A stretch of DNA of 57,435 nt from Gonapodya prolifera JEL478 (lineage: Eukaryota > Monoblepharomycota > Monoblepharidomycetes > Monoblepharidales > Gonapodyaceae). The stretch is from assembly GCA_001574975.1 (NCBI GenBank), contig KQ965890.1, forward strand, positions 1 to 57,435, given 5' to 3'. The position numbers and the translations under genes are program-made. A model generated the notes under the pieces. It saw only the letters and a list, made by a program, of their open reading frames with translations. It ran no database searches and had not been told where the DNA came from. This document shows, piece after piece, positions 1 through 48,882 of this stretch; the stretch's first letter is position 1; each line of letters begins with the position of its first letter.

Positions 1-130
1 CAAAAGTGCAAAACTACAGCACCCAGTATTCCCAGCTGATCTCTCACGCTAGTACTGACTGGGCTGTCGCGGGCTTCGCTGCGCTGATCGGACGGGAAGC
101 GGCACTTTTCCGCGCATATGGCCGTAGCTG
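1..130. repeat. 130-bp dispersed repeat, copy 1 (inverted relative to 48753-48882)
   Basis: This segment is the reverse complement of 48753-48882 with only a few differences, read by eye. The match stops at position 130 on the inner side and may continue past the window edge on the outer side. It carries no convincing gene: the short frame on the minus strand is open in both copies but ends at the repeat. It may be the end of a mobile element; its family is not recognised. Confidence 0.8.
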
Positions 131-280
131 AATTACGTCTCCAAAGTTGGCTTTATATTGGTAAAATTTTGCGTTCAAATTCAAACGTGAATGCATATAA
201 TGCGCACCAACCCCATCAAGGTTAGTGGCAAAACTGCACAACATGCCCCACACACTCCATATCCAACCTCTTCCACCAAC

Positions 281-2260
281 TCATGCCGCCTCCGCCCACC
301 CAACACCCTCCCACACCCCCCCCTGCTCTTCACTCCCCTCCTCCACCATCTCCACCGTCCCCGCCCTCCTACACACCGGACACCTCACAACCACACCATC
401 CAGCTCGCCCTTCTCCACCAACTTGGCTTCGTCCTCCCACCCGCGCACGCGGACGGAGCGGGATAGGCAGAATGTGTGGAACCGGTGCGAGCAGCCGGGG
501 AGGTATAGCGTGGGTGCGGGTGGGAGGGCGTCCATGGTGTCGCTGCCTTCGTCCGAGGAGGAGGAGGAAGCGGAAGGGAGTTCAGAGCATGTCCCGAGCC
601 GCTCGAGCGCGCAAGAGGGCGCGGCACGGATTCGGATGGATGGGAGGCGGGATGCGAATGCGGAACGTTGCAGGGAGGAGGTGGAAGTGGGAGAGGTATC
701 AGGTGACGGAATGGACTCAAGCGGGCCCCGGGTTGGTGCAGCCACGGTCTCGAGCGTCAGGTCCGCCCATCCAATCTCCTTGGTGCCCGTGGGGACGCCT
801 TTCACACCTCCATCCCCACCCGCACCCGCTTCCACCGGCGCCTCTACCCCCGTCCCTGTCCCCGCCGTATGAGCCCTCCGCCACTCCTCAACCCTCTTCC
901 CATTCCTCTCCTCCACGCCCACATCATACCCCGCGTCGCCCGTGGGCAGTTCCCACCTGCACACGGGGCAGGCGTTACTTCTCTCCAGCCACTGCTCGGC
1001 ACACGCGCGGTGGAACACGTGCTTGCACGGGAGCGCCACGACGGCGTGTGGGCCTGCGAGGGTCTGGTCACCCCGGCGAAACGCCTCGAGGCACACGGGG
1101 CAGTGCGGGTGCAGGGCGAGTGTTGTCGGTGAGATGTATGTTATGGGAGGCAGGGATGCGATGGCGGAGGGGGATGCGCGGGGTTGGGCGGTTGTGGTTG
1201 GAGCGCCGCCCCCGCCAGTAGGAGATGGGAAGGAGATGTGGTAGACGGTGCCGGTGGTGGGGTCGTAGAGCAGCCCCGAGGTTGGGGAGAGTGGGACGAA
1301 GGGGAATGTGAAGGATGAGGGTGGGAGCCAGGGTGGGTGGGATGAGGCTGGGCGGGTTTGTGGGGTAGCAGGTGTGGTACCGAGAGTCGTCGGCGTATTG
1401 AGTGGTGATGCAGGGATGATGGGATCAGTGACAGGAGGGTCGGCAGTGGAGGTGGTGGTGGACGACGATACGGACGTGTCCCCGCCTGACACTTGTTCCA
1501 CGTCGTCAGACCCATCGACGTCCATCATGTCCCCCACATCTCCACCGCGTCCCTGCTCTACTCCAGGCCGTCGCTGCCCTTCCTCCATGTTCACTCGCTC
1601 CCTTGATCCATCACCACTCCCCGCCCTCGCCGCCTCAGGCTCCCCAGCGTGCTCGCCATTCTGCCCCTCAGCTGGTGCAGACGCGTGACTGTGCTGGTCG
1701 GCGCCGTTCTGTGGGGGGCCGAAGAATACGGGTAGGAAGGAGAAGCCGAGGATGTTGGCGCGTGGGACGGAGGGTGGAGGTGGGGAGGACGGGTGTGTAT
1801 CTGCAGGTTGCGACGGAGGGGTCGTATTTTGCGGGGTTGCTTCCGCAGAGTTTGTTGTGGGGTAGGGTGCGATAGTCGGAACGAATGTGTACCTGCCAAT
1901 GTTCCACCCATTGAGGTCAGCAACTGCACCAGCCTCGACCCTCGCTTCCCCCGATTCAACATACGGGGGGGTAACTATCACGGACCGTCCATCCGGCGTG
2001 GGTATCAAATCGACCAGCACGGGAATGCGTACACGCTGCGGCTGACCTGGGGCAGTGTCTGCGCCAGTGACGGTGGGTGTGGGCGCGGCAGGCGGGGTGC
2101 GCGAGTCCGTTGAGGTGACAGAGATTGTTGCCTGTGCGGGGATGACGAGGTGGATCGGAGCTGCGGCATGAGGGGGTAGCGAGAGGTCTTGCTGCTGGGG
2201 GTTTGGAGAAGCAAGTGGTGGAGAGGAGTCGCTGTGAGTGTTTGCGTCGCGGGATGCCAT
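281..2260 (-). CDS. RING-H2 finger protein, putative E3 ubiquitin ligase
   Basis: A single exon of about 659 codons; I take the ATG at 2260. The first 380 residues or so are low-complexity Pro/Ser/Thr. A clear C3H2C3 RING-H2 finger follows at roughly residues 385-437, with CPVC, then CKHVFHRAC, then CPVCR. Such fingers recruit an E2 enzyme and usually act as E3 ubiquitin ligases. Near the C terminus (about residues 590-640) is a second half-finger, CSHRFHTFC followed by CPVCRR, without its first Cys pair, so it probably binds zinc incompletely or not at all. No membrane segment or substrate-binding domain is obvious, so the target is unknown. Long plus-strand frames overlapping it reflect its GC-rich low-complexity composition. 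Confidence 0.8.
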   Translation of the reverse strand: MASRDANTHSDSSPPLASPNPQQQDLSLPPHAAAPIHLVIPAQATISVTSTDSRTPPAAPTPTVTGADTAPGQPQRVRIPVLVDLIPTPDGRSVIVTPPYVESGEARVEAGAVADLNGWNIGRYTFVPTIAPYPTTNSAEATPQNTTPPSQPADTHPSSPPPPSVPRANILGFSFLPVFFGPPQNGADQHSHASAPAEGQNGEHAGEPEAARAGSGDGSRERVNMEEGQRRPGVEQGRGGDVGDMMDVDGSDDVEQVSGGDTSVSSSTTTSTADPPVTDPIIPASPLNTPTTLGTTPATPQTRPASSHPPWLPPSSFTFPFVPLSPTSGLLYDPTTGTVYHISFPSPTGGGGAPTTTAQPRASPSAIASLPPITYISPTTLALHPHCPVCLEAFRRGDQTLAGPHAVVALPCKHVFHRACAEQWLERSNACPVCRWELPTGDAGYDVGVEERNGKRVEEWRRAHTAGTGTGVEAPVEAGAGGDGGVKGVPTGTKEIGWADLTLETVAAPTRGPLESIPSPDTSPTSTSSLQRSAFASRLPSIRIRAAPSCALERLGTCSELPSASSSSSDEGSDTMDALPPAPTLYLPGCSHRFHTFCLSRSVRVRGWEDEAKLVEKGELDGVVVRCPVCRRAGTVEMVEEGSEEQGGVWEGVGWAEAA

Positions 2261-4311
2261 TGTGCTGCGTCCCAAGAAGTCAGAAATGTGTTGAGTTGTG
2301 CGACAAAGGTGAAGCCCGAAGGCAAGCGTTGACTCACCGTCTGCTGGTCCTGTCAGTGCGCGCGTTTCAGTCTTCTGCCGCTGGGTAGAGTAGACTTAAC
2401 TTTAAGGAGTTCGTAGCGTTGAGAGGGGTTCGATTGGCTGGCTTGGATCGCAGTTTCTGCAGAGTTTCCACTGAGTTCGATCGGGCTCCTAAGTTTACCC
2501 GCTCCGGTTTCGAAACCCCATTCAATACTTTCAATTACTGTTAAACCTGTCAGTCCGCGCAATCACCGTTCTGTCCTACATGCTCACAGAATGACCTCTC
2601 CAACTCCTTCATCTATGCAAGCGGAGCCGAGCGTAGCCCAGTGACGTTCGATAATAAGTAATTCAAACGGACACACTCATGAATGTAGTGAGGTACAATT
2701 CCGGTTTTTTGGTTGCGCAAGATTGTCATGCTGACCAAATGCCTCTACTATCACCCGGCGCTCAGTTCCATGCATTTTTCATCTCATTTTTGTGATTTGT
2801 GAAAGTGCTGTTTGTTTCCACGTGAAACCTTCTGCAAGATCAACTTCCGCGATCGACTCTGTATGTGGTCACAGTGCACTTGTAAAAGCTTCAGCGCATC
2901 TACGTACGTTTGCAGTACCTTTTGCACTCCCATGTAAGGGATTTGGAGGGGAATTTCACCATCTGTGCACTCTTGACCGCTACCAAATACCAATGTACCG
3001 TACAACCACAAAAGTCTGAACACTATAGCTCCGGCTAATGGCTCTTTGTATAACTTGTTTGAGAAGACTGGGGCGTATTGAATGTTAAATGTGACTCTGG
3101 TCTCATATACATTTCAAAGGTGTGCAATTTGCAAAGCGGCGTGAACTTGAAAACTGAATTGATGTCAATTGCCACGAGCTCAGTGGCCACTGGGCTTCAC
3201 ATCATCAGAGTGCATCAATCGCAACAACCGTATGGCACTAGAGACCAGAGTCATGCGTGGCATTCGCCGTGCCCTCTGTTGCTCAAAACAATGCACGAAA
3301 TTTAATCAGCGAGAGAAGTACTTGCGTGACTTGCGTTTCGAAACGCGAAAGTGGGGAAAAGGACCCGGCGTTTCGGAAGATCGCAATGGGTATAACAGTT
3401 CAGCCGCGATTACGAGAGGGTGGACCTTCCGAACGTGTGATCAACAAATTTATTTCTTAGGAGTGCAGAGGAGATTGTATGTGTTGGAGAGTGATCGAGT
3501 GAAAGTGAGAGGAAAATAGTGCTTCACTTCGTTGGGCGGTTGGAGGTGAGGAGCGAGGGAACTGCGACGAGGAAGTGATCGTCTGGAAGTGTGGACGGGG
3601 GTACGAGTAAAATTTGCAATTCAAGAAGGAAAGAGCAACCACGTGGAAGAGAGGGGTTGATTTTATGCGCACAATTTCTTTGACAGGAATGTGGTATTGG
3701 TGAGTCAGCTCCACAACGCGCACGCCCTCATTACTCCAAATTCACAGCAATGCGAGAGTTGACAGAGACGCAGAGAACTCTGTGGTCACGAACGTGATCA
3801 GCAGCGTATCTCACTACGCCGAAATCCGCGGGATGCGGTGCATTTGGGTCGGCACGTGACAAGCCGATTGATCACTTTCCACGGCGAGACAAAAAAATAC
3901 ATCTCGGCTGAAAACATTTCATAGCTGCTTCGATTTTATTAGCGGTTCCATTTGACACGAGGTTGCGCGTTGTTTTTTGGTTCCGGAGCAAGACCCCGCG
4001 GCAAAAGATACCGGGACGAAGGTTCTGCTCCTCTCGGAAGCAAAGACCTGAGGGCTCTTGGCGACGGGAAAGGCAGCGACGGAGCAGCTAGAGCAAAGAG
4101 AGAGAAGGCGAAGGAGAGCGACACGCGGGCGAGATAGGAAAAGAGAGGGGAAAGACGGACGTGCCATAACGGGACAGCCAGCCTAAGTGAGTCTAAGATG
4201 GGTGGGAGGGGGACGGGCGCTGGCAGAATGTGCTGAAATTGAAATTGTCAGTACGAACGGCATTCCTACGCGAGTGTTGGCTGTGATCCAAGTTCGGTGT
4301 TGGGGCGAATA
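2261..4311. other. Intergenic region, no gene recognised
   Basis: About 2 kb between the divergent starts at 2260 and 4312. I see only short open frames with no family resemblance, no tRNA and no clear repeat. It presumably holds both promoters. The sequence is AT-richer than the flanking genes. Confidence 0.5.
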
Positions 4312-5721
4312 ATGGCGACGTCGGGCCAACCGCACGCGCACACCCGCGACACACCACTCGCGCAGCCAGCACACGACAATGGCCACCCATACGCATACGC
4401 ATCCACGCACCCCACCACTCATGCCCCCCGGCCAACCCTCCCCTCCCTCCGCGACATGCAAGTCCCCATGCCGCCACTCCCGCCTCCACCCGCACACCAG
4501 CAACACCCCATCCACACACCGCCGCTGTTCCCGCACAAGTCCAACTACGCGCCCGTCCTGTGGGATCCGGCGTACGCCGTGCCGTTGCAGGGGTTTGCCC
4601 AGCCGGTAGCTGCACCCCCGGCTCTTCCACAGTCTGTCCCATTGCCGGACTCGGCGTACGCCCCGCCGACGCACCCGCACCAGCTGCCCCCGCCGACGCA
4701 CCCGCACCAGCTGCCCCCGCCGAGGAATACGTCGCCTCATCTCCCCACTGCCTCACCTCACCTCTCCACCGCCTCACCTCACGCTTCTCACATCCCATTC
4801 AGTTCCCCTCTCACATCCCCGGCACCCCTACCCTCACCCCCACTCCACGGAGCATCCACCCCCCTCACCTCTTCTTCCTCCTCCACAACCATCCTCTCCC
4901 TCCCATCCTTCCCACCACCCGCCGCACCGCTCGCATCCACCACCCCGCCGCCGCAGCATTCCGCCAAACAACCCGTGTCGACGGAAACGATCCTCGCGGC
5001 ATGCAAACGCAACTACGAGCTGTGCTTCATCGAGAACGTGGCGTGGGATGAGGAGCACGGCGACGGTGTGGATGGGGACGGTGACGCTCCCGTCGACGGT
5101 GCTGGCCCGGGCGTCGCCCCGCCCAGCGCCCCGCCCTCCCCACACCCGCACCCAGACACGACCAAACGAAAACGCTCATCCACGCAACGCATCCTCGACT
5201 CCTCGGGCCCGCCCACACCTTCCTCCTCCTCCTCCTCGTTCTCGCCCCCACTGCACCCCACCCACACCTCCCTCCTCGTCCCAGCCCCAACACCCCTCCC
5301 CGCGCGGCGGGGCTCCAACGTCCTATCCCTCCTCAACGCGGCACCGGCGCCACTCCTGCCCACACCGGCCCCGTCCGTGTCCGGGGCGTCCACCCCGACG
5401 TCGGTGTCGGAGCCGCCGAGCCCGCCGAGGAAGAGGGTGTGTACAAAGTCGCCGTCGCTTCCTGACCTTCCTACCTCCACGTCCACCTCGGCGCCTGCTC
5501 CTGCACCTTCCATTGCGGTAGACGTTACCGCCCCCACCGCTGCTGCCACCCTCGCCCCACTCACCTCCACCTCCACCTCCACCTCGGGCATGACGCGCTC
5601 CACTTCCGACGCACAGCTCCGGCTCCGGCTCGGCAGGCTGGTCATGATGGAGATGAGCGAGGACGAGGGTGGTGGTGGCGAGAGCGCTAGCTCTGGTGGG
5701 AGGAGCGCAGTGGGTGCGTAG
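4312..5721 (+). CDS. Low-complexity Pro/Ser/Thr-rich protein, function unknown
   Basis: A single open frame of 469 codons from the ATG at 4312. I recognise no domain. The N-terminal half is rich in Pro, His, Thr and Ser with a short tandem repeat (HPHQLPPPT twice, near residues 120-140). A less biased stretch at about residues 225-250 contains CKRNYELCFIENVAWDEE, the best candidate for a short folded or binding motif. Next come an acidic Gly/Asp patch, a KRKR basic patch, more Ser/Pro tracts and an acidic tail. The composition would suit a disordered regulatory protein such as a transcription factor tail. Minus-strand frames across it are also open, so the choice of strand rests on frame length and ATG context. 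Confidence 0.5.
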   Translation: MATSGQPHAHTRDTPLAQPAHDNGHPYAYASTHPTTHAPRPTLPSLRDMQVPMPPLPPPPAHQQHPIHTPPLFPHKSNYAPVLWDPAYAVPLQGFAQPVAAPPALPQSVPLPDSAYAPPTHPHQLPPPTHPHQLPPPRNTSPHLPTASPHLSTASPHASHIPFSSPLTSPAPLPSPPLHGASTPLTSSSSSTTILSLPSFPPPAAPLASTTPPPQHSAKQPVSTETILAACKRNYELCFIENVAWDEEHGDGVDGDGDAPVDGAGPGVAPPSAPPSPHPHPDTTKRKRSSTQRILDSSGPPTPSSSSSSFSPPLHPTHTSLLVPAPTPLPARRGSNVLSLLNAAPAPLLPTPAPSVSGASTPTSVSEPPSPPRKRVCTKSPSLPDLPTSTSTSAPAPAPSIAVDVTAPTAAATLAPLTSTSTSTSGMTRSTSDAQLRLRLGRLVMMEMSEDEGGGGESASSGGRSAVGA

Positions 5722-5739
5722 GGCGATGGCGATGGCGGG

Positions 5740-6729
5740 TCGCGATGGCGGGTCGCGATGCGGGGAGTGGAGAGTGTATGTGTGTGGGAGAGTGGGAGAG
5801 TCGCTGCGCGTATTTGATACCCATGGTGGTTTCTGGTTGAATCCGAAGTCGGCACGGGTGTCGTTGGACTTCACGGGTCGCCGCCAGCTGGCCAGGTGTG
5901 CGCCCCAACCGTACAGAGCGAGAGCGTATGTAGAAGTATTTTCCTTAGGTTTCCTTTTCAATTACATTATAGAAGTGCGTGTGCAGTTTTCAATTCGAAG
6001 GGGGCACGGCATGCTGCATCTGTTCGCAAGCGATGCGGAGGCACGGCCCGCGGGCCAAGGGGTTCTTTCCGTTCTGCCGGGGCGGGGTAAGCGAGGTTCT
6101 TCCTCGTCGGTTGGCGAGGGCGGCTTTGAGTCAACAATGGTCGATGTGATAAGAAGCATTTTGTGTTTTGGGGAGTTGTAGTCGAAGAGGGTATTTTTGC
6201 CAGAGCGGCGTCGGGAGTGTGGGCGGTCACACTTTCATGCAGCCTGGATTCATGGACACAACTCGCAACAGTCTCCCCTCAAGCGTCCACTGAAGTTGAA
6301 CAGGCGCGCAGTCAGACTCCCTGTCAAAGCTCTGTTTTTGCATGTGGGCCTCCACTTAGTGCATGATGTGTTGTACCAGAGTGAGTGACTTGACACTCTC
6401 TCACTGCCTTGATTTGTATCTGGACATATCCTCCCCAAAAGTGTCAAATGATGTTGAAGTGGCATGCAGTCAGAATGCTGTCTGCTAAAGCTTTATTTTT
6501 GCAGGTGGGGCTCTACAGACAAAGTGTTAGAAGGATTTCAACCCATCTGATGCTGTTGTTTAAATGGTAAGAGTAGTAAATTCTGAACCAATAAATGCTT
6601 TTGGTGCTTTTTGTCCACAGTGCACTGTTGTGGCAACCATTGCAGAACAATTTTGTATGACATCAGCTGTTTTTTAAATGTGGGCAACTTGCACCTAGCC
6701 ACACACAAGGCTGGTGATGCTTCCTTTTA
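5740..6729. repeat. Repeat family R, copy 1, left part (split by the transposon at 6730)
   Basis: Aligns by eye with 11500-12100 and with 12600-13300. From about 5750 to 6307 this copy is still rich in CpG; from 6308 to 6770 there is none. At matching sites, cgcaagcgatgcggaggcac near 6026 reads tgtaagcaatgtggaggcat near 12860: every difference in that stretch is CpG to TpG or CpA. No protein is recognisable in the family. The right half of this copy resumes at 10549 after the transposon. Confidence 0.75.
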
Positions 6730-7096
6730 CAGCTAGTTGCATAATATAAGAGCCTGGCCCAAAAATTGTGCCGGCCGCACATAAAACTTTTCCAGTTCAG
6801 AGGATCGCCCTGCCCGCCCCACCCACCATCCCGTGACGATCTTTGCAGTATTGCGATTGCTGAATCTGTGCGATCGTAATTCGGTGAGTCCCGTCGCGGC
6901 TACGATGACTTTTTCCACCAGCGGGTTCCCACGGCGGAGACTCATTTCCTCCTCCCCCAGGGCGATTCGGAGCCAATTCCCGGGCGAAAAGGAACGATCT
7001 CACTACGGGGCGTGCATGTGAGTTGTTTGACTGGGTTTGGTGGTCGCATTGGCGAGCGCTTATGTGGTCCAACCGGCGGCGGTCCAGAATGCCCAA
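6730..7096 (+). repeat. Left 367-bp terminal inverted repeat, with promoter/leader and start codon
   Basis: Pairs with 10182-10548 over 367 positions without a gap and with six mismatches. It contains an intron-like segment, GTGAGT at 6884 to CCCCCAG ending at 6960, and the transposase ATG at 7062. It therefore seems to supply promoter, 5' leader with an intron, and the first twelve codons. Confidence 0.93.
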
Positions 7097-8225
7097 TACA
7101 TTGCCCGCTGCTCTGCGATGGAGGGTTGTTTATGCGCATATGGACGGCCAAGCGGTTGAGGACATTGCTGAGCGCTTCATGGTCAGCAGGAGTAGCGTGA
7201 AGCGTTGGGTTAGGAACTTTTTGGATTATATAGACGTTTTCCTGCCTCGTGAGGGACCACGAGGACGGCGACCGAAGATGAAGGAGGACGAACATGAAGT
7301 AAGTGATGCTATGATTGTAATGGATACGCGAGTTCTGATTCGGCATTTTATTGAGGTTCTGCGATTGCTCATTGATGCTACACCTGACATGTATCTCTAC
7401 GAGCTTATGGATAGCCTTCGTGAGTTCTTTCCGGACTTGGATTACTCGCCCTCTACGCTTTGCCGGGAAATTGGTCGGATGGGCTATTCATTGAAGGAAC
7501 TGTCTCGGAGGGCCAGGGAGCGTAACTTGGAGGCAAGGATGGATTTCGTCCTGCACATGTCCCAATACACGAAGGATCAACTCGTCTTCTATGACGAATC
7601 AGCGTACGATCGCAGGACGCTCATCAGGAAATATGGAAGGGCGCCGTCAGGACTGCGGGCAACTGTCTCAAGTTTCTTTGTATGGGGAACACGGTATTCT
7701 CTTGCAGCGGCACTCGGCACGAATGGGTACGTCGCCACGTCCATACAGGAGGGTCCTTTGTGTGCAGATGATGTACTGGAGTTCTTCGGCCAATCGCTGG
7801 TAAGTGGATCGTTGGTAAAGTTCCGACTCTTTTTTTTTTTTTACATTGCGTCGGCCAGCTTCCCAACATGAATCCCTTCCCTGGGCACTGTTCCGTCATT
7901 GTGATGGACAATGCAATCATTCACAAGCGTCAGGACATTCGTGACGCTGTTGAAGCAGCTGGATGCCGTATGGAGTTCCTCCCACCATATAGCCCTGATT
8001 TCTCCCCGGTGAGTCTCAATGTATTGAAGTTTCACATTTGACGGTGTTATAACGTGGCATGAACAGGTTGAGAATTCATTTGCCATGGTGAAGAGATGGT
8101 TGCGCAAAAATCAAAGGTTTGTTGAGGAGGAGCACGACCCTGTGAATGCTATGCTCCTGGCAACCTTCCACATTGGTCCGCGGCAAGCAAGAGCATGTTT
8201 CAACTGTGTTGCATTGTATATATGA
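7062..8225 (+). CDS. DD34E transposase of the IS630/Tc1/mariner superfamily
   Basis: Cuts and joins the transposon ends at TA sites. Three exons (7062-7799, 7859-8008, 8067-8225) joined by phase-0 GT..AG introns of 59 and 58 nt give 348 residues, a usual length. Residues 15-50 form a helix-turn-helix-like DNA-binding region (VEDIAERFMVSRSSVKRWV). The catalytic triad is visible: Asp178 in VFYDES, Asp263 in VIVMDNAIIH, and Glu298 in PPYSPDFSPVE, with 34 residues between the last two. The second intron separates the Pro before Val-Glu, so splicing is needed for the catalytic Glu. The start lies inside the left TIR; an alternative is the Met of MDGQAVED downstream. No stop or frameshift is seen, so it may be active. 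Confidence 0.92.
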
Positions 8226-8356
8226 TGTAATATCTCCAATGTAAACTGAAGGTCTCATAAGTTGCAAGCAATCCAAGTAGTTCGTAATGGACGGAAGGAC
8301 CGTGAAGCATGTTATAGTGTCACCATACTTTCTATTTCTGTAAACAATCATGTATT

Positions 8357-10216
8357 TCACCACGATTCAATTGGCACAGCCTTTACAATTACATTGACTT
8401 CCTCCTTGTTCAGTTCATACTCTGCAACCTTCACGTCCAAGCCATACTTTGTGTTGGTGATTGCGTCACGCAAGTCAAGTGCATGATCTGTTGGAGCTCC
8501 TTTAGCAGGGCCCCAACCTGCAATGTCCAGTACGTGGCCCCACGTCATGGACTGCCCAATGGCCACCACTCCTGCATCGTGATGCCCCCCGTCCTTCCGT
8601 ACAACCGTGATGCGTGCTCTCTTGCAGGTCAGCCTGTGGGTGCGTGTGGTGTACGGGGATGACATCGTGCAAGATGGTATTGGGCGATGGAATAATGAGG
8701 ATTGAAGTGGTGAAGAAGATAAAGGAGGGGCAATCATGCCTTGGCAAAAATACACTTCAATACATAAGAAGTTGTCTCGGGTATTGTTCACTTACTAGTT
8801 CTTTTTGGAACAACCGCATTACTCTCCTTGAAGCATTCTAGCCATATTGGAGGTGTTTGACGTGAAACGCGATCCGTGAATCTGTTACTGGTCTGCAATG
8901 GTGGTTAGGTTAGGCAGCAAACATAGTCACCACATTGAGTTGCTTACAATGGTCAATGCCCACATGTTCAACCTTTCTGGGGTGAGGCGAAGGTGTTTCC
9001 CAGAGATTGGAAACACATAACAATGATCACCACAGTACGTGCAAGGGTACAAATTCCTGAGTGCGTTGACCTCCTGGCTCTTCATTGCCTCAGCGTGACC
9101 TGGGGTGTGAGTGCTTGGCTGCATTCAATATGTCACACTTAGAGACTAGACTTGAAGTTCGAAGTGTGGGACAACAATATCACATACCTTCTTGTTCGCA
9201 TCTGCAGCTATTATTCACACCAATTAGGACGTTTTCAAATTGCCAGCAGGGCAGAGAACTCACCGATTGATGGAATAATCAGGCGAAAGTGGACGTTTGG
9301 TTTCTTTGATTTCAAGTTTGCTCCAATTACTTTTGCAAGTTGGTCTTGCTCCAGTAACACTTTCTCTGCGCCCTTGGCCCTTCCCGACTTGTAATAGACG
9401 TAGAAGTTCGGGGATATTGTGATTCCACCAGGCAAGTGCTTGAGAGCATTCTCCGCGCGAAGCTGTAGGATGTCATGGAATCTGTCCCAATCGTCCAACA
9501 ATTCGTCTGCAAGAGTCAGCAAAAAAGCACCCCTGGAACCGAATTCTTCAGGTTGGCAGTGAAAATGTCACAATTTACCATTAGAGGAGTTGCCAATGGT
9601 GAATCGGCACCAACAGCATCTGCATCGTCCACATTTCAACACAAAGCAATTGCGGTGCTGGAATACATCACTCACCGCTTATCTGAGGGCCATCCTCATT
9701 GTCTGCTCCATCGCCAACGTCTGACCCGCCACCGCCGACGTCTGGCGCTTCCATCGGCAGGTCATCATCACCATCCAGAATCTCACTTGACAGTTCAGCG
9801 TCCGACACAACACATTTCTTCTTGGCTTTCCGCCTCCTTGCAACTGATGCCATCATGATGGCGTGTTCAGTCATTCCGAGTGCCTCCTTGCAAAACCGTG
9901 TGTGGCACGATCTATCCATATAAATCCTTGTATTCTTTTCCCAACTGTATACCAGTTCCCTCTCTGATAAATTCAGCTGCCCCTGCACCCATTCCTTGAC
10001 CTTGCTGGCGTTCTTATCAGTGGGGTCGTATTTTACCATCTTTGAAGGGAAAGCACGCCGAGCCATCACTCCATCTTGACGTTTTGGACACTTCAGTGGG
10101 TTGCGACAGTCAATTTTCCCGCAAGCTCCTATACAACGCCCACAGCAAGCGCAGCAAACCTCCTTCATTGAGGCCACCGCGTTGGGCATTCTGGACCGCC
10201 GCTGGTTGGACCACAT
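8357..10216 (-). CDS. Transposon accessory protein with two Cys-rich clusters, function unknown
   Basis: My model has six exons: 10216-9676, 9506-9264, 9207-9188, 9118-8948, 8892-8796 and 8739-8357. The GT..AG introns are 55-169 nt and all phases agree, giving about 484 residues. The first twelve codons come from the right TIR and match the transposase N terminus except one residue. A Cys cluster (CCACCGRCIGACGKIDC and CPKR, residues 20-45) and CTYCGDHC (about 294-301) suggest zinc binding. Between them lie a charged region with RRRKAKKK, a possible nuclear signal, and an Asp/Gly acidic patch. I recognise no family. Its place in the element suggests a role in end binding, transposase control or targeting. 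The last acceptor could be 15 nt further upstream. Confidence 0.75.
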
Positions 10217-10548
10217 AAGCGCTCGCCAATGCGACCACCAAACCCAGTCAAACAACTCACATGCACGCCCCGTAGTGAGATCGTTCCTTTTCGCCCGGGA
10301 ATTGGCTCCGAATCGCCCTGGGGGAGGAGGAAATGAGTCTCCGCCGTGGGAACCCGCTGGTGGAAAAAGTCATCGTAGCCGCGACGGGACTCACCGAATT
10401 ACGATCGCACAGATTCAGCGATTGCAATACTGCAAAGATCGTCGCGGGATGGTGGGTGGGGCGGGCAGGGCAATCCTCTGAACTGGAAAAGTTTTATGTG
10501 TGGCCGGCACAATTTTTGGGCCAGGCTCTTATATTATGCAACTAGCTG
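10182..10548 (-). repeat. Right 367-bp terminal inverted repeat
   Basis: Reverse complement of 6730-7096. It holds the start codon of the accessory gene at 10216 and the same intron-like segment (10394 down to 10318). The inner boundary is sharp: the two TIRs diverge immediately after the GCCCAA at 7091-7096, in the middle of codon 12. Confidence 0.93.
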
Positions 10549-13330
10549 TAATCTCAAAGCCTGGTATATGCATTCTTATGTGAGGTTGTTCCTTACTTTT
10601 TGACCAGTGAGCTTTCTTCTCCCATTGACCAAATTTGCTAGCATGTATTGTGTCTTTGTTGAAGACTCTGGCAAGTGACCTTTCTCTACTTTGTTAGAGC
10701 AGTGTCTTGAATGTGACCTTGACTTGCCAAGCTGCCTGAAACTCACTTTAACACTGACAAACCACTCTTTTCAAGAAACCTTGCTTGAAGCTAAATAGCT
10801 GCATGGTGAGGCATTCTACAGAAGCTTTTGTTTTTCCAGGTGGATCTCTGCTCTTTGTGCCCAAAGTTTGCCAAACTCACACAAATCTTGATCAGGAGTG
10901 GGCTTTCTGCACCAATCAACCTTCTGCTAATGTGTAGTCCACAGTATGCTGTTGCGGCAACCATAATAACTCTGTTGCATGACATGAGATCATTGTTCTA
11001 ATGTGGGTAGTTCCTTGTTGTATCCCAAGACTGGAGCTGATTTATTATAGTTGAATCCCTTAGGCTCATTCTAGATGAGTTGTTGTTGGCTTCATGTAGT
11101 CTTCCTGTGGATGACATGGTGCTGTTACTACATCTCTAGTTTTGTCACTACTCACACCAGCTACCTAATGTAGAATCTGCTGAAAGGTGAAGCAGATGAA
11201 GTAGGGGTTTTCCTGCTCCCCTGTTTGTGGTAAGAGTGTTTTGGAATCAACAGTCAGCATGATGTGATATTGTTTTTGTGTTTGGTGCCTGGAGTGTGCT
11301 AGTGGACAATTGTCTTCCTCCCCACTTATTGCCAGAGCAGTGTCCAGAGTTTGGGCTCTCACACTCTTAACTGCCTGGACAATTGGTATAAACTGCCACC
11401 ATCTCTCTCCAGAATAACACATTCAAAAATCAAGTGGTGCTTTGTACATAGTCACACTCTCTGTCATAGCATAATTTTGTCTTCTTCAATCATATAGATG
11501 TGAATTTATCAAACCCCAGATGCACAGCATTTGTTAGTTTGCAAGCAATGCAGAGGCACAGGCTGTGACCATTGTGACAGCAGGTTCTGCCAGCACAGGT
11601 TAATTAAGGATTTTCCTTGGTTTGCACTTGTTGGCAAGTGTGGTTTTGAATCAATAGGTAATATGATATAATAGGTTTTGTGTGTTTGGTGGAGATGAAG
11701 TAGAAGATGGTGTTTTGTTTTGCCAGTGTGGTGTCAGGATTGTGTAATGTTGTGCTCTCATGCTGCCTGGACCAGGGTTCCTCCATAAAGTCTCCTCTTG
11801 AGTGTCATCTGAAGTTTAAGTGGTGCACAGTTGGACTATCTGCCAAAGCATTGTTTTTGCAGGTGGCTCTCTACAGACCAAGACCTAACTGTTGATGGCA
11901 CTTGGCACTGACTACCAATTCCATCTGATTCCACTGGGACTGTAAGAGTTGTGTTTGTGTAGCTGCTGCATAGTCCTGTTGTTGTGATGTTGTTGTATCA
12001 AACATTGCAGAAGAAGGCATATGTCAATATCACCTTTTTCTTGTTTGAGATTGGAGTAGCATCAGGTCAAACATGGGGGTGATGCTGCTTCATCTCAATT
12101 TCAAAGTCTGGCATGCCATTGTAAGGTTGTTTCTCTGATTGTGGCAAGTGGGTTGTTTGTCACATACTTGACTGACCAAACTCCACAATATGATGAATTG
12201 TGTATTTCTTGAACACTTTTGGGAGGTGATCAGTGTTTTTTGTTAAGTGGGACCTTGATTGTGCTGCTTATGCTGGAGGCCCCCATTTTTCCAGGTGGGT
12301 CTCTGCTTTCTGTTCCAACACAATGCAAAACTCACCTGAGACTTGAGGATGGCATGTTGTGCCAAGTAATGCTTCAGCTGATGTGTAGTACACAATTTGC
12401 TGTCACAGCATCCACAACAACAGTGCTGCATGACACAACATCATTTTTCAAATATGAGTAGTTCACTATCATATACCAAAACAGAAGCTGCTTAATTTGA
12501 AAACCAGGTCTGTCATGCCATGGATATTTGATGGTAGGTTAGTCATGATAGATTAGTCATGATAGAGATGGGTGACAATGAGATTGGTTCTGGGCAGGCA
12601 GGCATCAGTGGAGGGGAGTTGGTGCAGGCAATTTTGGGTCAGGAGGGTGCCAGGGTGGTATGGGTGGAAGTGAGAGGTGTGTGTTTAATATCAGTAGTTC
12701 CATCTCCTTGGATCTGAAGTTGCATGTGTGGTGCAGTTAGACTTAGGGGTGGGCTCCCCACTGTACAAGAGTGTATGTAGAAGAGTTTCCTTAGGTTTTT
12801 ATCAATCAAATTACAAAATGTGTTTTCTGTACCATGGGGGCACAGTGTGCTGCATCTGTTTGTAAGCAATGTGGAGGCATGGCCCGTGACTGGATTGGCT
12901 GCAGGTTCTTCCACCATTCTGCTGGCATGGTTTAATTAAGGATTTTCCTTGGGGTGTGTAGGTGGCAAGTGTGGTTTTGAATCAGTGGCAGATGTGTTCA
13001 ATATTTTTTGTGCATTGGGGCACTAGTTATAGTAGAAGATGGTCTCTTCGCCAGAGCAAGTGTCGTGAGTGTGGCATGTTGCACTCCCACACTGTCAATA
13101 GGTGTATCCCAACAGTCTCTCCTCCTGTGTCACTTAAAGTTGAAGTGCAACTCAGTCAGACTGTCTCCCAAAGTCTTGTTTTGCCAGAGTAACGTCAGGA
13201 GTGTGGAATGTTGCACTATCATGCTGCCTGGATTTTGTTTGCTCTCCTCAAGTGTCACATGAAGTTTGCGTGGCATGTGGCCTGGCTGTCTGCCAAAGTG
13301 TTGTTTTGCCGGAGCAATGTTGGATTGACA
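10549..13330. repeat. CpG-erased repeat block (rest of repeat R copy 1, plus copies 2 and 3)
   Basis: Starts with the right half of the copy interrupted at 6730, then a second copy (about 11430-12520) and a third partial copy (about 12600-13300). Reading every line, I find one CpG between 10507 and 12884 (at 10955), while TG and CA are abundant. No coding capacity remains. Recurring landmarks are TTTTTGCAGGTGG followed by CTCTACAGAC, and CTTAGGTTTxxxTTxAATxA. The pattern fits methylated, deaminated transposon remains. Confidence 0.8.
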
Positions 13331-48752: not shown

Positions 48753-48882
48753 CAGCTACGGCCATATGCGCGGAAAAGTGCCGCTTCCCGTCTGATCAGC
48801 GCAGCGAAGCCCGCGACAGCCCAGTCAGTACTAGCGTGAGAGATCAGCTGGGAATACTGAGTGCTGTAGTTTTGCATTTTCG
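48753..48882. repeat. 130-bp dispersed repeat, copy 2
   Basis: Inverted copy of 1-130. Differences include CG versus CA at one site and C versus T at another. The similarity ends abruptly at 48753 on the inner side. Together the two copies bracket 48.6 kb in opposite orientation. Confidence 0.8.

Follow-up and report, generated by a model that had tools for sequence, protein, structure and literature searches.

A two-gene IS630-Tc1-mariner transposon of Gonapodya prolifera with long inverted ends that may carry a shared promoter

A transposon with two convergent genes

Can the inverted ends of a Tc1/mariner-type transposon supply the promoter, and even the first codons, of two unrelated genes? 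That question is raised by a locus in Gonapodya prolifera JEL478 (GenBank assembly GCA_001574975.1), within a stretch of 57,435 nucleotides (contig KQ965890.1, positions 1–57,435, forward strand) that was analyzed as a whole and is here called the window. A transposon spans positions 6730–10548 of the window (3819 bp); it is bounded by TA on both sides and contains two convergent genes, one encoding a transposase (T) and the other a cysteine-rich protein (C). Labels made of C and a number denote contigs of the assembly, with C160 being the window copy. Based on sequence comparisons, we consider it likely that C160 is a cut-and-paste IS630-Tc1-mariner transposon from a two-gene family, in which T is paired with an element-borne C and the long ends contain a shared, duplicated promoter. 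The features of C160 are as follows.

6728–6729, no strand: left target-site duplication TA, preceded by T
6730–7096, plus strand: left terminal inverted repeat, 367 bp, opening CAGCTAGTTGC
7018–7087, plus strand: putative intron in the 5' untranslated region (UTR) of T (GTGAGT..CAG), within the left end
7062–7064, plus strand: ATG proposed earlier as the start of T; ATT in both C154 ends
7089–7091, plus strand: likely transposase start codon, conserved in relatives
7089–8225, plus strand: transposase T, 320 amino acids, DD34E; exons 7089–7298, 7356–7799, 7859–8008 and 8067–8225
8357–10189, minus strand: cysteine-rich protein C, 379 amino acids in the model; exons 10189–9676, 9506–9264 and 8739–8357
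10187–10189, minus strand: likely C start codon within the right end; a further in-frame ATG at 10168 lies outside the end
10191–10260, minus strand: putative 5'-UTR intron of C, the right-end copy of 7018–7087
10214–10216, minus strand: ATG proposed earlier as the start of C
10182–10548, minus strand: right terminal inverted repeat, 367 bp
10549–10550, no strand: right target-site duplication TA, followed by A

The arms of the inverted repeat, as detected, run from 6727 to 7096 and from 10182 to 10551. An initial annotation, made from the letters of the window, described the 367-bp repeats as exactly paired. The pairing is indeed ungapped over 367 bases, with a local alignment score of 710 (≤26 in 30 shuffles); however, it is not exact, as 361 of 367 bases are identical. 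All six mismatches are transitions at CpG sites of one or the other end, and the two ends were therefore probably identical when this copy formed. As the initial annotation stated, the arms part in codon 12 counted from the ATG at 7062; the divergence begins at 7097, the third base of that codon.

The transposase

When read from 7089, T is 320 amino acids long and its gene has three GT-AG introns of 57, 59 and 58 nt. Pfam searches identified DDE_3 (PF13358; 87.7 bits, cut-off 28.6, E 8.8e-25) and an N-terminal helix-turn-helix (HTH_23; 30.2 bits, cut-off 24.6), and the NCBIfam IS630 model scored 146.8 (cut-off 100). DDE_3 was the top match among 13 Pfam families up to E 1, none of them of Mutator type. 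Matches to PDB were weak, the top one being Mos1 (E 0.52). The catalytic triad is D150-D235-E270, with 34 residues separating D235 and E270. The earlier description of a DD34E transposase of Tc1/mariner type thus agrees with both the triad and the two models above cut-off, and, judged from these matches, T is an IS630-Tc1-mariner transposase. In viral contigs, 1, 0 and 146 stretches fitted a pattern for relatives of T or C, and none were confirmed.

The cysteine-rich protein and its pairing with T

The genome searched comprises 47.6 Mb in 207 contigs, and protein searches scored the best candidates only. C172, whose tested left flank matches the window exactly, was counted as the window locus; an exact duplicate is also possible. 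The first exon of C matched C160, C172, C23 and C154, and weakly C105. The C105 relative, used as a query, reached C59, C45 and C29. A profile of the C-terminal part (from C45, C59 and C29), run against 3715 open reading frames (ORFs) of the collected regions, then matched C137 (E 5.6e-22) and C22 (E 3.6e-5); these two loci yielded no more of C than its C-terminal part. With a composite query from C45, the matches listed were confined to C45, C105, C29, C137 and C59.

C-like sequence was thus present at nine loci (C172 merged with C160), and it is convergent with a T-like gene at eight of them (C160, C154, C105, C59, C45, C29, C137 and C22). The ninth, C23, is broken ~570 bases into its C end, with T out of view. 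(Past the break, C23:1-1183 holds other sequence and then, ~500 bases away, ends with the contig in an array of TTAGGG telomere repeats.) All matches listed when the genome was searched with C proteins fall at these nine loci. T-like genes were found at 12 loci, 8 of which have C, and the identity of T at C-bearing loci to the window T falls to ~35%. These searches support the view that C belongs to the element as a true partner of T and is not a host gene. The initial annotation had treated the second gene as part of the element, and the convergent pairs bear this out; as a refuting outcome it had named a host gene absent from other copies, and the genome search instead found C beside T in diverged copies.

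Spliced C (379 amino acids) and seven pieces of its relatives had no Pfam match up to E 5, and the sole PDB match for C up to E 5 had E 0.37, which we took as chance. The absence of any match naming C would suit a host gene fragment captured by a single copy and without function in the transposon. We regard this as highly improbable, however, because the matches listed all lie in these elements, extend across diverged lineages and are convergent wherever T is visible, and because C has a ratio of nonsynonymous to synonymous differences (pN/pS) below 1 against C154.

Within the N-terminal part of C, the cluster C-x4-C-L-x-C-G-..-E-C does not vary among the rows aligned (C45, C29, C59 and C105). 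The window protein has C-x4-C-I-G-A-C-G-K-I-D-C, which resembles the cluster of its relatives without being identical to it. More tentatively, C may bind DNA or metal, and it may aid T in transposition or shield the element from silencing. The C model is least secure where its third exon begins. Three further candidates were set aside: a match of the unspliced exon-2 frame to MreB (E 0.17) was at chance level; AlphaFold predictions made without an alignment on pieces of C were poor (mean predicted local distance difference test scores of 38 for exon 3 and 55 for exon 1) and were unused; and a C-like match in C85 (E 0.063) was dropped because its strand is wrong for its tip.

Constraint and decay among copies

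Between C160 and C154, T differs at 23, 20 and 58 first, second and third codon positions, respectively (pN/pS 0.25 over 316 codons), and C at 45, 42 and 63 (pN/pS 0.46 over 269 codons). C154 is decayed, with frameshifts and an insert of ~3 kb in C, and both ratios are raised thereby. The insert consists of other DNA at C154:19.1-22.2 kb. Between C160 and C3, pN/pS for T was 0.52 over 321 codons; between C160 and C23, pN/pS for C was 0.66, based on 7 differences in 69 codons. The frames of both T and C showed a purifying pattern in these codon comparisons. Among the copies examined, only C160 has both genes open and D, D and E in place.

In the stretch compared between C160 and C3, 56 of 90 differences are C>T or G>A changes at CpG sites of C160. 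Such CpG decay in the C3 transposase half (C3:3012-4564) suggests that the host methylates copies of this kind.

Long ends in other lineages

Long ends were found by comparing the DNA upstream of T with the DNA upstream of C at each locus. The left and right ends are 0.98 identical in C160, 0.86 in C154, 0.84 in C45 (247 columns) and 0.84 in C29 (242 columns), although the T-end of C29 lacks its outer part. In addition, the C-end of C59 aligned with the T-end of C137 over 215 columns at 0.76. The ends stop 106 nt before the start of T in C45 and 60 nt before it in C29; ends that run past the start codon are peculiar to the subfamily of C160, C154, C3 and C23. CpG transitions account for 21 of 37 left/right mismatches in C45 but for only 5 of 36 in C29.

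Ends of different lineages have little in common past the tip. Among the ends compared, the longest matches between lineages were 64 columns at 0.72 and 44 columns at 0.84, with the others at ≤37. Within the subfamily, 36 bases (30 outside CpG) are common to the two C154 ends and absent from the left and right C160 ends, C3 and C23, compared with only 2 sites that split left ends from right ends. Because the two ends of a lineage are alike and share little beyond the tip with those of other lineages, they evolve together.

In C172 (C172:33500-37171), aligned with window positions 1–7096, the left flank is repeated and is then followed by the element interior in inverted orientation; the switch falls within the end, between positions 129 and 346. 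This arrangement is either a flip by end-to-end recombination or an assembly error.

What, then, do the ends do? Since the genes of C160, C154, C45 and C29 begin at or shortly inside the inner borders of their ends, we infer that the promoter and 5' leader of each gene lie in the long end next to it, in which case a single promoter, present in two copies, would serve both genes, as in maize MuDR. Alternatively, gene conversion or recombination between inverted copies could preserve the similarity of long ends that have no promoter role. The fact that the two ends of a lineage evolve together is consistent with that alternative, as is the inverted interior of C172, whose switch point inside the end is what end-to-end recombination would give. 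We nevertheless think it unlikely that conversion is the whole explanation, as the C160, C154, C45 and C29 genes begin at, or ~60–106 nt inside, the inner border; given such gene starts, the places left for an upstream promoter are the end itself and the DNA that flanks it. Near the tip there is a TATA-like stretch, which C154 does not conserve, and we claim no promoter element.

Start codons and the shared N-terminus

The initial annotation proposed that each end acts as promoter, leader and N-terminal tag, with both proteins starting at the ATGs at 7062 and 10216. Translation confirmed that these ATGs open convergent frames, which read MWSNRRRSRMPN.. and MWSNQRRSRMPN.. and share 11 of their first 12 residues. 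To follow the start codons, seven ends were aligned (C160 left and right, C172, C23, C3, and C154 left and right). Both C160 ends, C172, C3 and C23 have the ATG, and, together with the open frames, this favors a conserved 12-residue tag supplied by the ends. Both C154 ends, however, have ATT at this position, whereas the ATG nine codons further in (7089 and 10189) is kept in all seven.

This later Met also lines up with the Met that opens T in C29 (MPKALL), C45 (MPKPLL) and C22 (MLTALS), and by eye T of C137 starts there as well (MPKPLS); C13 has ATA at the position and C59, by eye, CTG. Position –3, also judged by eye, is C before the ATGs at 7062 and 10216 and A before those at 7089 and 10189. 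Moreover, both genes of C160, C3, C23 and the C-end of C154 have GTGAGT 71 nt upstream of the later ATG, together with a CAG that ends one base upstream of it. In T of C45, GTGAGT is at –59 and a CAG likewise ends one base upstream of the ATG; the same arrangement was not seen in C29, C22 and C13. These motifs point to a possible 5'-UTR intron within the ends, and, as the ATG proposed earlier falls inside it, splicing could remove that ATG. Given the ATT in both C154 ends and the conservation of the later ATG in relatives, the 12-residue tag is probably wrong, and we assign it a slim chance. Of the earlier proposal, the promoter role is supported by inference only, and the tag is not supported: the ends probably give T and C just Met-Pro-Asn in common.

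It is also possible that T alone takes its start from the ends and that C starts at the ATG at 10168, outside the right end. This Met is in frame, seven codons past 10189, and is kept in the three C-ends seen (C160, C23 and C154); furthermore, C of C45 and C29 begins with an unrelated MSSE.. that lies outside the end. The ATG at 10189 is equally conserved in the same three C-ends, comes first in order and has A at –3, which makes the downstream start doubtful. Because C of C45 and C29 begins with MSSE.., the Met-Pro-Asn start of C belongs to the C160 subfamily. For this subfamily, we propose that the homogenized stretch grew inward past the start codon, such that both proteins would come to begin with Met-Pro-Asn.

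Tips, target site and mobility

The genome has 18 occurrences of a 17-base tip pattern, TACAGYTRKTKGCAWAA, and none of its reversed control; the pattern was built from known tips, so 18 is a lower bound. All 18 tips (17 without C172) have the base T in front of TA. A candidate tip in C105, TACAGTTGATAGC, has G before it, in contrast to these 18, and was left uncounted. TA is present at both ends of C160, C154, C18 and C66, which reads as a TTAA site with TA repeated, and from these flanks the target appears to be TTAA. Mutator elements have a target duplication of ~9 bp; C160 shows TA only.

Two short elements have the same tips, namely C18:147651-148869 (1219 bp with TA) and C66:106048-107318 (1271 bp with TA). 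Their ends are 0.91–0.96 alike, and C14:530132 carries one such end; neither element had a match to T or C better than E 0.18. By sharing the tips of the family, these short elements suggest that it has moved.

Weighing a two-gene family

Several observations weigh against a two-gene family with long ends. Scoring only the best candidates could miss C copies away from T. The window C resembles C of other lineages modestly in sequence, with E 9.8e-4 to C105 and 0.0026 in reverse. An N-terminal profile reaches the window C at just E 7.1e-4, middle and C-terminal profiles of C relatives miss it, and the alignments of its exon 3 with C45, C59 and C29 were equalled by 38, 13 and 531 of 2000 shuffles, respectively. 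No C was found at 4 of the 12 T-like loci (C3, C145, C13 and C114); C3 has a run of N after T, C145 and C13 are incomplete, and the C114 protein, 27% identical to T, perhaps represents another family. There is no long end pair of their own in C105 (a 49-nt match) or C59 (none). Finally, no empty site was found, and the TA duplication is read from flanks. In the case for the kinship of C, then, its pairing with T, its orientation and its position weigh as much as sequence, and with all of this counted we still favor an element-borne C and ends with a shared promoter.

Comparison with known elements

Among fungal Tc1/mariner elements, those of Sclerotinia are described with ends of 36–70 bp, lengths of 1.8–2.3 kb and transposase ORFs (PMC4188875), and those of Verticillium with short perfect ends and a single intronless ORF of DDE_1 type (PMC3441728). 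Trem elements of Paracoccidioides have ends of 45–49 bp among the rows listed, and TremE packs into 1.88 kb two ORFs, of which the first is the transposase (PMC2836289). Cochliobolus has miniature inverted-repeat elements of the Tc1/mariner superfamily, and the Cochliobolus passages of the same source contain no two-gene, long-end plan (PMC4112212). As these sources portray the group, C160 resembles it in its superfamily DDE transposase with an N-terminal helix-turn-helix, TA duplication and inverted ends; it differs in its 3.8-kb length, 367-bp ends, introns and two unrelated convergent genes. C160 thus lacks the single gene and short ends that are typical of fungal Tc1/mariner elements. Across the fungal literature covered, which excluded Repbase and most subscription papers, none of the titles and abstract openings listed describes a two-gene, long-end plan in fungi.

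The maize element MuDR has a transposase gene convergent with a gene for a protein of unknown function, and its ~215-bp ends hold the transposase site and the gene promoters (PMC3440606). C160 likewise has two convergent genes and long ends, insofar as that account describes MuDR; in contrast, its transposase is of IS630/DDE_3 type and its duplication is TA. Going by gene arrangement and profile matches, the layout is that of MuDR and the membership is IS630-Tc1-mariner.

Ciliate elements offer a second comparison. Among Sardine, Thon and Anchois, the ends are 425 bp in Sardine and ~700 bp in Thon (PMC3464196), and the TBE families each have distinct ends (PMC4724952). As portrayed there, these elements and C160 have in common an IS630-Tc1-type transposase with extra genes and long ends; the ends of Sardine and Thon, however, are palindromic. 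C also differs from TBE- and Sardine-type accessory proteins in having no Pfam match, up to E 5, to kinase-zinc finger or tyrosine recombinase domains.

We judge the chances to be about even that C160 represents a new IS630-Tc1-mariner family that would have reached the MuDR plan independently, with one promoter duplicated in ends that are homogenized by recombination, a TTAA target and, in the C160 subfamily, engulfed start codons. If so, IS630-Tc1-mariner transposons gained two-gene autonomy, with promoters in their long ends, outside ciliates and by a route separate from that of MuDR. The relatives of such DDE transposases mostly work alone, and C160/C154, C45, C29, C59/C137 and C105 form a natural series, within one genome, in which to examine what a DDE transposase gains from an accessory protein. 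The same diverged copies are a series for how long inverted ends stay alike.

Other features of the window

The window also contains 5S rRNA genes at 11–129 (minus strand) and 48754–48872 (plus strand). When window positions 1–1000 were used to search the genome, 32 of 42 rows fell within the first 140 bases, and 5S genes thus seem to be scattered. TTAGGG repeats and short introns are features of the host DNA.

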